This document shows, piece after piece, positions 30,027 to 32,343 of a stretch of 64,000 nt of DNA. The notes beneath the pieces are model-generated. The model was given only the letters and a program-made list of their open reading frames with translations, was not told the DNA's origin and did not search any database. Position 1 is the first letter of the stretch. Every line of letters starts with the position of its first letter. This DNA comes from Methanosalsum natronophilum (GTDB taxonomy: Archaea > Halobacteriota > Methanosarcinia > Methanosarcinales > Methanosarcinaceae), in NCBI RefSeq assembly GCF_024808815.1, contig NZ_JANUCS010000005.1, positions 1 through 64,000 of the forward strand. Direction: 5' to 3'. The position numbers were made by a program, and so were the translations under genes.

Positions 30027-30455
30027 CTATTTTATTCCTAGCCTAACATCTACAGCAGGTCCTCTATCAATCCCAAGAATCTCATTAGGGTTCATCATGA
30101 GCTGACCAGTTGCAAGAAGATTATCTTCACTATCAACAACTAATACCTCTTCACCCACTCTCAACTGTGGATCAATATCAATCACATGTTTAGCAAATGC
30201 CGTTTTTCCAGTAGAAACGAAGGGCTTTGCCTCTGGATGGATCACTACTCTCATGTTAGGCCATGGGAGATGAGAGTGCAGACGTGTAGCGCCTTTTATA
30301 CTCAGAGTGAATATTCCGTCCTTAGCTCTCACAGTAGCAATACGGTCACCGTTATGCACTATTTGTCGTACTCTTTTTGTTTTGGAGTACTGGAACGAAA
30401 CATCGTCATCGAACAAGGCAGTACCGCTTCCTTTCCCGAATTGATAATCTGCCAT
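30027..30455 (-). CDS. PUA-domain protein of the archaeosine transglycosylase type
   Basis: A 142-residue stand-alone protein whose second half is a PUA RNA-binding domain (PEAKPFVSTGKTAFAKHVIDIDPQLRVGEEVLVVD...LLATGQLMM). The first half (DYQFGKGSGTALF...) matches the domain preceding PUA in archaeal tRNA-guanine transglycosylases. Some Methanosarcinales carry this part as a separate gene, so a role in archaeosine at tRNA position 15 is plausible. AAGGTCA is a good site for ATG 30455; the open frame continues to 30491 without one. Confidence 0.82.
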   Translation of the reverse strand: MADYQFGKGSGTALFDDDVSFQYSKTKRVRQIVHNGDRIATVRAKDGIFTLSIKGATRLHSHLPWPNMRVVIHPEAKPFVSTGKTAFAKHVIDIDPQLRVGEEVLVVDSEDNLLATGQLMMNPNEILGIDRGPAVDVRLGIK

Positions 30456-30585
30456 GATTCTGACCTTTTTTAGATTTTTATCTGTTTGCATAACTAGGTA
30501 GTAGATTAAACATTCTGATTAAAACTTTATCGGTTAGACCTAAGCTTTAGATTATTCCAATTTTTGCTTAAATTAGCCAAACACC

Positions 30586-30593
30586 TTAAATAC
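30586..30593 (+). promoter_or_regulatory. TATA box of the RNA candidate at 30618
   Basis: TTAAATAC, preceded by purine/C-rich CAAACACC as a possible BRE, is centred about 27 bases before 30616-30618. Predicted transcription starts where the long stem of the candidate RNA begins. Confidence 0.5.
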
Positions 30594-30617
30594 CATGATA
30601 ATCTATAATAGTTTATA

Positions 30618-30718
30618 GAGGAAACGGGTACGAGTGTTTGTTGAAATGAATACTTTTTTCAAAGTGACTGTAATCATCTAACAAACCGTTCATCCCCTCA
30701 GATCTACACCGTTTCCTC
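30618..30718 (+). ncRNA. candidate structured RNA closed by a 10-bp stem
   Basis: GAGGAAACGG (30618-30627) pairs perfectly with CCGTTTCCTC (30709-30718). Inside, GTTTGTT (30636-30642) pairs with AACAAAC (30680-30686), and ATGA/TCAT can stack within it. An alternative inner hairpin uses TTGAAA/TTTCAA. A TATA-like box sits at the right distance upstream and T-rich sequence follows. There is no credible reading frame. It lies in the 310-base gap between the PUA-protein gene and rtcB. I do not recognise the class; the length of about 100 nt and terminal stem suggest a small stable RNA. Confidence 0.55.
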
Positions 30719-30765
30719 GTTTATTCTCATAAAATAATAGCTGAAGATAAAAAAGATAAGTTAAG

Positions 30766-32235
30766 TTAACCTTTAGCTACACCCATAGGAACCATGCGGA
30801 CCACTTTTTGTGCTATCCCAGAGTCATGGACTACATTTACTACATCACTGCTCTTTTTATATACTTCAGGTGCTTCCTCTGCAATAACAGCAGGATTCAT
30901 GGCTTCAACATGGATACCCATGGCTGCAAGGTTTCTTTTAACATCTTCACCTTTATATGCACCTTTAGCCTTTTTACGGCTCATTGCCCGACCTGATCCA
31001 TGGCATGCACTTCCAAAGGTTGTATCCATTCCTTGTTGTGTACCATGAAGAACAAATGAAGGTGTACCCATACTTCCTGGTAAGAGTACGGGTTGACCAA
31101 TGGCACGATATTGTTGGGGTACTTCACTATGACCTGGTGGGAATGCTCTAGTTGCACCTTTTCTATGAACGTACAGTTTTTTCTTAGTACCGTCAACTAT
31201 GTGTTCTTCTAGTTTGGCTATATTATGAGCAACGTCATATACTAGATCCATCTCTAAACTGTCAATATCGGTTTTAAATGTTTTAGCAAACACTTCACGA
31301 GTCCAATGCATTATTATCTGTCTGTTAGCCCACGCATAGTTTGCTGCACATGCCATTGCTTTAAAGTAATTCTGGGCTTCAGGTGATGTTGTGGGAGCGC
31401 ATGCTAACTGTTTATCCGGTAATTGAATGCCGTATTTGTTCACTGATTGGGATAATGTACGAAGATGGTCAGTGCATATTTGATGACCGGCACCACGTGA
31501 CCCGCAGTGGACCATGAACGTGACCTGGCCTTCCTCGAGACCGTAGGCTTGTGCTGCCTTTTCATCATAAACATTATCTATATACTGTATTTCAAGAAAA
31601 TGATTTCCACTACCTAGAGTACCCAGTTGAGGTTTACCTCTCTTCCGGGCTTTTGAGCTGACCTGGGAAGGATCGGCACCTTCGATCATACCATTACCTT
31701 CACAGTGTTCCACATCAGATTCAACACCGTATCCCTGTTCAACTGCCCAACGAGCACCTTGTAAGAATACGTTATCCAGTTCATTATCATTTACTCTTAT
31801 TCTACTCTTGGACCCGAGCCCTGATGGTATCTCCTGGAATATGTTCTTGATAAGTTCACTGATAACTGGCCTAACTTCATCAACATGAAGATTTGTACGT
31901 ATTAATCTAACACCACAGTTTATGTCAAACCCTACACCACCGGGACTAATGACACCTTCCTCACTATCAAATGCAGCTACGCCGCCGATAGGAAATCCAT
32001 ATCCCAGATGGGCATCCGGCATTGCTAATGAGTGTTTTTGAATGCCAGGTAAGGCTGAAACATTAGCTACCTGGTCAATAGTCTCTCTTTCCATTGACCT
32101 CAGCATATTCTCAGAAACAAATATTTTGCCTGGTACCCTCATGAACGGTTTATATTCCTTAGGTACCTCCCACGTATTATCGTCAATCTTTTTGACAATA
32201 TCGAAAATATCATTGTTGTTATTCTCCTGCTCCAT
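30766..32235 (-). CDS. rtcB: RNA-splicing ligase RtcB
   Basis: Joins tRNA exon halves (2',3'-cyclic phosphate to 5'-OH) using GTP and Mn. Motifs: MPDAHLGYGFPIGGVAAF, SPGGVGFDINCGVRL (metal Cys, about residue 107), GTLGSGNHFLEIQY, HCGSRGAGHQ, and the guanylylated His region ACHGSGRAMSRKKAK. At 489 residues it is full length. ATG 32235 (MEQENNN) follows GGGGTG; the open frame to 32244 lacks a site. Archease, its activating factor, is encoded next on the same strand 109 bases upstream. Confidence 0.96.
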   Translation of the reverse strand: MEQENNNNDIFDIVKKIDDNTWEVPKEYKPFMRVPGKIFVSENMLRSMERETIDQVANVSALPGIQKHSLAMPDAHLGYGFPIGGVAAFDSEEGVISPGGVGFDINCGVRLIRTNLHVDEVRPVISELIKNIFQEIPSGLGSKSRIRVNDNELDNVFLQGARWAVEQGYGVESDVEHCEGNGMIEGADPSQVSSKARKRGKPQLGTLGSGNHFLEIQYIDNVYDEKAAQAYGLEEGQVTFMVHCGSRGAGHQICTDHLRTLSQSVNKYGIQLPDKQLACAPTTSPEAQNYFKAMACAANYAWANRQIIMHWTREVFAKTFKTDIDSLEMDLVYDVAHNIAKLEEHIVDGTKKKLYVHRKGATRAFPPGHSEVPQQYRAIGQPVLLPGSMGTPSFVLHGTQQGMDTTFGSACHGSGRAMSRKKAKGAYKGEDVKRNLAAMGIHVEAMNPAVIAEEAPEVYKKSSDVVNVVHDSGIAQKVVRMVPMGVAKG

Positions 32236-32343
32236 TTTGAACACCCCTGTTATCCTTTGATGATAAGATTTTTCTCAATAATTGAGTTCTAGAAAATGAT
32301 ATGGTCTATTAGATAAGATAAGGCAAGACAATATAAGATAATA

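Follow-up and report, generated by a model that had tools for sequence, protein, structure and literature searches.

A probable trans-acting small RNA with a dedicated, tandem-site mRNA target in one clade of Methanosarcinaceae

The RNA gene between the PUA gene and rtcB

The window, a stretch of 64,000 nucleotides from the genome of the halophilic methanogen Methanosalsum natronophilum, contains an RNA gene of about 100 bases at 30618-30718 on the plus strand, in the intergenic region between a PUA gene and rtcB. The RNA is 101 nt long here and between 81 and 101 nt in the homologues, and its predicted 5' end coincides with the first bases of a terminal stem. The divergent neighbour (30027-30491, minus strand, with its start at 30491) encodes a protein with TGT_C2 and PUA domains that resembles the C-terminus of ArcS. 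The convergent neighbour is rtcB (30766-32244, minus strand), whose 3' end faces the small RNA. Because rtcB is encoded on the minus strand, the two genes are convergent, with the sRNA located about 48 bp past the rtcB 3' end, and the placement "upstream of rtcB" in the first-pass annotation was wrong. Nine other loci of the family have similar DNA at the corresponding position, flanked by the PUA gene and rtcB. The order PUA gene, sRNA, and rtcB was the same in each of the ten loci that were compared at first, and also in two further genera. The closeness to RtcB, archease, and a tRNA looks incidental. In the genera without the sRNA no RtcB-coding sequence was found within about 1.5 kb of the PUA gene (L279-L293), so that the clade with the sRNA may also be the only one with the PUA-rtcB arrangement.

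A covariance model built from ten sequences was searched against 112 Methanosarcinaceae genomes and identified the sRNA in 65 of these. The TATA-like box that had been pointed out earlier is CTTAAATA at 30585-30592, and together with the preceding BRE-like CAAACACC it forms the predicted sRNA promoter (30578-30592, plus strand). On the plus strand, the motif TTTAWATA is matched at all eight positions in 62 of the 65 homologues and at seven of the eight in the other three, and the distance from the TATA box to the stem is 30-31 nt in 64 of the 65 and 33 nt in this genome. Archaeal transcription starts about 25-30 nt downstream of the TATA box, and therefore the predicted start of the sRNA falls at the stem. 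On the minus strand none of the 65 homologues contains a complete TTTAWATA motif and the distances are scattered. The upstream conservation, too, is one-sided and restricted to the plus strand. Conservation, covariation, and the placement of the TATA box together strongly support the earlier suggestion of a non-coding RNA that starts at its terminal stem under its own archaeal promoter. The RNA is followed by the T-rich stretch GTTTATTCT at 30719-30727 (plus strand), which is the likely termination region and is also T-rich in most homologues.

The terminal stem P1 is indeed perfect over 10 bp, as had been claimed, with the 5' arm GAGGAAACGG at 30618-30627, the 3' arm CCGTTTCCTC at 30709-30718, and 81 nt between them. 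In the 65 genomes P1 is kept as an 11-bp helix, and five of its pairs have been changed on both sides. Considering the 46 distinct sequences, 97.4% of the cells are paired and six pairs show changes on both sides, a result that none of 500 shuffles matched. On the plus strand 20 G.U cells stand against 9 A.C cells, which favours this strand as the RNA strand, and the folding energy of this strand is lower than that of all 200 dinucleotide shuffles (z -2.8). Stable folding is likewise predicted for the opposite strand (z -3.6); an RNA transcribed from it was considered and rejected in view of the promoter conservation and the G.U evidence. The nested 7-bp stem of the first-pass annotation, P2, is present in this genome (GTTTGTT at 30636-30642 with AACAAAC at 30680-30686, plus strand) but is a local feature. 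Its counterpart elsewhere, UGCUUG/CAAGCA, is shifted by a few bases among the genera and weakly supported as a consensus helix, and an unguided consensus fold (RNAalifold) recovered P1 only. The absence of an open frame was noted correctly, given that the RNA does not contain any ORF of more than 15 codons and that no ORF is conserved among the homologues. Searching Rfam 15 with gathering and with relaxed thresholds did not reveal any match at the locus, the best sub-threshold hit nearby being an unrelated 35-nt piece with an E-value of 4.5. The stem is thus conserved in the relatives and the locus does not match a known family, the two points at which the earlier proposal could have failed. 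Neither C/D boxes nor an H/ACA hairpin with a 3' ACA were found by inspecting the alignment of the 65 sequences, and there was no match to an Rfam guide RNA.

According to the homologue alignments, the segment AGUGACUGUAAUCA (30663-30676, plus strand) is almost as conserved as the pairing segment described below although it is unpaired, and no partner was found for it. It is possibly a protein-binding site or a second seed.

Predicted pairing of the seed with the leader of an unlinked gene

Between P2 and P1 the RNA contains a mostly unpaired C-rich segment of the form AAACC[A/G]UUCAUCCCCUCA, which we call the seed (AAACCGUUCAUCCCCUCA at 30683-30700, plus strand). Its longest invariant part, AACCAUUCAUCCCCUCA, is identical in 62 of the 65 homologues, the exceptions being this genome, which has a G variant, and two Methanohalobium, in which the terminal base is U. 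The invariant unpaired segment AACC(A/G)UUCAUCCCCUC is complementary to both hairpins in the leader of one other gene, with 15-20 bp and -29 to -39 kcal/mol. The 15-mer CCRTTCATCCCCTCA typically occurs in two to three copies per carrier genome. One of them is the sRNA copy, and the one or two others are on the opposite strand, with few exceptions in the 5' leader of this one gene. The reversed control pattern of the 15-mer did not match anywhere in the 112 genomes.

In this genome the target ORF is unlinked to the sRNA and encodes 376 aa (L021:3191-4321), and the two target sites are at 176123-176137 and 176154-176168 of contig C2 (genome G000). Here the pairing of the seed extends to position 30702, and the duplexes with the two sites have energies of -37.9 and -37.8 kcal/mol. 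Over all genomes the cognate duplexes range from -29.4 to -39.3 kcal/mol compared with about -12 kcal/mol for shuffled leaders, and the best of the 59 other gene starts in the window reaches -16.3 kcal/mol with the sRNA. The target ORF begins directly 3' of the sites in 56 genomes, and seven more were recovered via the protein. Two sites are present in 60 of 63 leaders, 31-38 nt apart from each other, with the last site usually 33-39 nt before the AUG, and 120 of the 123 sites have the sequence UCUGAGGGGAU. Each site typically folds as a hairpin comprising a GAGG apical loop, the core UCUGAGGGGAU, and a lower stem such as AACCAU/AUGGUU. TATA-like boxes cluster about 110 nt before site 1, implying a leader of about 150 nt, and both sites should therefore be transcribed. 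The sites end slightly upstream of the Shine-Dalgarno/AUG region and cover neither of the two.

One of the two sites is often mismatched (e.g. GAUAAAUGG in Methanolobus) or contains insertions (G081 and G122). In these variants it is the hairpin more than the duplex that is preserved, and the hairpins may thus also bind another partner, which could be a protein or the ribosome. We also considered the GAGGGGAUGAAUGG in the leader as part of an upstream ORF and rejected this reading. Most Methanolobus no longer have its AUG in site 1, and the AUG directly adjoins a G-run, so that the sequence is better explained as the stem of the hairpin.

Cognate pairs of seed and leader are not significantly better than swapped pairs, with 2879 of 20000 permutations being as good. 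This weak trans-covariation is due to the seed, which is nearly invariant and hardly varies. The sole co-change of seed and target is found in this genome, where the sRNA has CCG and target site 2 has ACGG; the stem of site 2 itself offers an alternative explanation for it. A seed with three A's and a target with three U's had been predicted for the basal Methanohalophilus, and this prediction was not cleanly borne out (GGUAUUGC).

The target protein and the shared distribution

The target protein is conserved at its N-terminus and in its C-terminal domain, and the two are joined by a long Q/P-rich linker. The C-terminal domain shows weak similarity to Penicillinase_R in 15 of 16 members and is predicted to fold as a winged helix (mean pLDDT 75), and its nearest solved folds are winged-helix regulators with modest scores. 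Based on these models the target is a putative DNA-binding transcription regulator. In this genome the gene is located near genes that, from reading their sequences, we name uvrB and a PAN-like ATPase.

The sRNA is found in at least eight genera, namely Methanosalsum, Methanococcoides, Methanolobus, Methanohalophilus, Methanohalobium, Methanomethylovorans, ANME-3, and one further genus. Outside the Methanosarcinaceae, the covariance model did not produce any credible match among 186 genomes of the order. Within the family, Methanosarcina (genus g7, taken as such) has no match better than an E-value of 0.5, and the PUA locus of the genera without the sRNA did not give a match even when searched with the filters switched off. 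With a 71-aa query the target protein was found in 65 of the 112 genomes, covering the same genera as the sRNA plus genus g12. Both partners are present in 63 genomes and both are absent from 45, while two genomes have the sRNA only and two the target only; all four single-partner cases are incomplete MAGs. Genus g12 is represented by two MAGs of 75% completeness, in which the target with two sites is present and the sRNA was not found. Methanosarcina lacks the sRNA as well as the target gene. In a tree of the PUA and bactofilin proteins the carriers form one clade apart from Methanosarcina, although the inner branches are weakly supported. Because the carrier genera form a single clade, the co-occurrence represents one evolutionary event and not many independent ones, and sRNA and target are best read as one co-inherited innovation. 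A Fisher P value for the shared distribution should accordingly not be taken as evidence of repeated, independent gains.

Proposed mode of action and relation to known sRNAs

The gene with its promoter, strand, conservation, and terminal stem, the complementarity, the tandem sites, and the co-distribution can all be read from the genomes. From these we propose, with a probability of roughly 80%, that 30618-30718 on the plus strand encodes a trans-acting base-pairing sRNA with a dedicated target, which would exert post-transcriptional control on a putative transcription regulator. The sRNA would be expressed from its own TATA promoter and closed by P1, leaving the seed exposed. In the cell the seed would bind to one unlinked mRNA, whose 5' leader of about 150 nt contains the two stem-loops in tandem. 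We infer that the CCUC of the sRNA would nucleate on the GAGG apical loops and then displace the hairpin to form 15-20 bp. If both leader sites were occupied, two sRNAs would be bound per mRNA. Given that the sites are just upstream of the Shine-Dalgarno/AUG region, the likeliest outcome would be reduced ribosome loading, altered mRNA stability, or both, and we lean slightly towards repression as the effect on the target. The AUCCCCUC of the sRNA resembles the anti-Shine-Dalgarno sequence AUCACCUC of the 16S rRNA. A more far-reaching and, in our view, rather unlikely version would be a circuit of one sRNA and one mRNA that arose once with the clade of methylotrophic methanogens and ANME-3, in which the twin GAGG hairpins would be ribosome stand-by sites and the sRNA an anti-Shine-Dalgarno mimic shutting both of them at once.

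The target hairpins seem to be constrained themselves, as indicated by their invariant core and GAGG loop, and the minus strand of the locus folds well (z -3.6). Therefore, the UCUGAGGGGAU hairpins could be the site of an RNA-binding protein, with the locus carrying the motif on a minus-strand transcript, either as a decoy or as leader of the PUA gene, and without any pairing between sRNA and mRNA. This is very unlikely because the promoter is conserved only on the plus strand, which is also favoured by the G.U pairs, and because the minus-strand motif is not closed by the CCAU/AUGG stem of the leader. In addition, the adjoining AACC is invariant and matches the GGUU of site 1, as pairing predicts. 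It is even a little less likely that the 15-bp element acts as DNA, namely as the operator of a transcription factor within both transcribed regions. The factor might be the predicted winged helix of the target itself, and a pair of sites in the leader of its gene would be in keeping with autoregulation. However, the sites are far downstream of both predicted transcription starts, their spacing varies from 31 to 38 bp and thus has no constant register on the DNA helix, the sRNA locus lacks the dyad of the leader hairpins, and the sRNA copy is part of an RNA segment that is predicted to be largely unpaired.

Accepting the RNA as real, it might act mainly on other mRNAs while the tandem hairpins of the leader titrate it as a sponge. 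Two near-identical high-affinity sites on one mRNA would fit such a role, as would the extra hairpins of Methanosalsum (L141) and Methanohalobium (L102 and L104) that contain the 15-mer. We consider this a shade less probable again than an operator, because this genome contains just one further seed match within one mismatch and the distributions of gene and sRNA coincide. Hardly any chance can be given to the initial proposal of a precursor undergoing processing through its stem, or circularisation by the RtcB of the adjacent gene. The synteny with rtcB is kept, but there is no bulge-helix-bulge, P1 being uninterrupted over 10 bp in this genome, and conservation falls on the seed, not on any splice site. 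Archaea commonly have RtcB, whereas the RNA is confined to one clade. An RtcB substrate is therefore unsupported, the strongest signal being a seed complementary to an unlinked mRNA leader.

A trans-acting sRNA with a dedicated target thus is the preferred reading, and comparable pairing is known from bacteria. In Staphylococcus aureus RNAIII and Listeria LhrC, C-rich unpaired segments meet G-rich loops of mRNA-leader hairpins, sometimes at two sites, which resembles the pairing proposed here. These RNAs are bacterial, not homologous, have multiple targets, and use C-rich loops, whereas the present RNA uses a junction strand. Among archaea, sRNA162 of Methanosarcina mazei (191 nt, between MM2441 and MM2442) is also an intergenic trans-acting sRNA, which uses a single-stranded linker to bind the translation start of an mRNA encoding a transcription regulator (PMC3510493). 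It has been reported only in three Methanosarcina species and differs by its locus, by having also a cis target, and by lacking tandem hairpin sites (PMC3510493). The present RNA has no match in Methanosarcina. M. mazei sRNA154 and sRNA41 are, as summarised in PMC5867862, trans sRNAs with exposed segments against ribosome-binding regions. The same paper describes an anti-RBS segment in loop 2 of sRNA154 and proposes a change in mRNA stability for this RNA (PMC5867862). By the descriptions given there, both are set apart by their regulation of nitrogen or ACDS, their several targets, and their occurrence in Methanosarcina (PMC5867862). Judged by its sequence, the present RNA would have what characterises sRNA162, sRNA154, and sRNA41, namely a non-coding transcription unit of its own and a conserved unpaired segment complementary to a distant mRNA. 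We regard it as a new family of probable trans-acting archaeal sRNA, which is a known kind, and what is unusual is that a dedicated target carrying twin hairpin sites is predicted in so many genera. We found no description of this RNA in the open literature; the 195 sRNAs listed for Methanolobus psychrophilus (PMC5378194) may include it as an unnamed transcript.

Few archaeal sRNAs have known targets, and the best studied are from Methanosarcina. The present family spans at least eight genera, its predicted target is equally conserved and nearly exclusive, and there are two pairing sites per mRNA. Because Methanosarcina, for which genetics is available, lacks both partners, transferring the pair into it would give a clean test, with just two components, of an archaeal sRNA acting on a leader. 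For methylotrophic and methane-oxidising archaea, the target, a clade-specific protein with a predicted winged helix, would offer a new regulator to study.

Some further copies of the seed motif were observed. The sole additional match within one mismatch in this genome (G000 C3:156742-156756, corresponding to L305:1501-1515) lies in what seems to be an intergenic region. A small minus-strand ORF, predicted to be regulator-like, has this copy about 385 nt upstream of it, and the match may be there by chance. The ANME-3 genome G122 contains a second hairpin RNA candidate (L143, 1365-1470; contig C135 near 1811-1825) with CCATTCATCCCCTCA in its loop. On that strand it shows two G.U pairs, and a TATA-like box precedes the stem by about 25 nt, so that the candidate may be another sRNA sharing the seed. 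In Methanohalobium, a long hairpin between convergent genes has the same 15-mer in its loop (L102 and L104; G007 C1:2211452 and G020 C45:2550). An intergenic 13-bp hairpin of Methanosalsum also encloses the 15-mer (L141 near 1362; G001 C1:344962) and could be a decoy if it is sense, or another sRNA if it is antisense.
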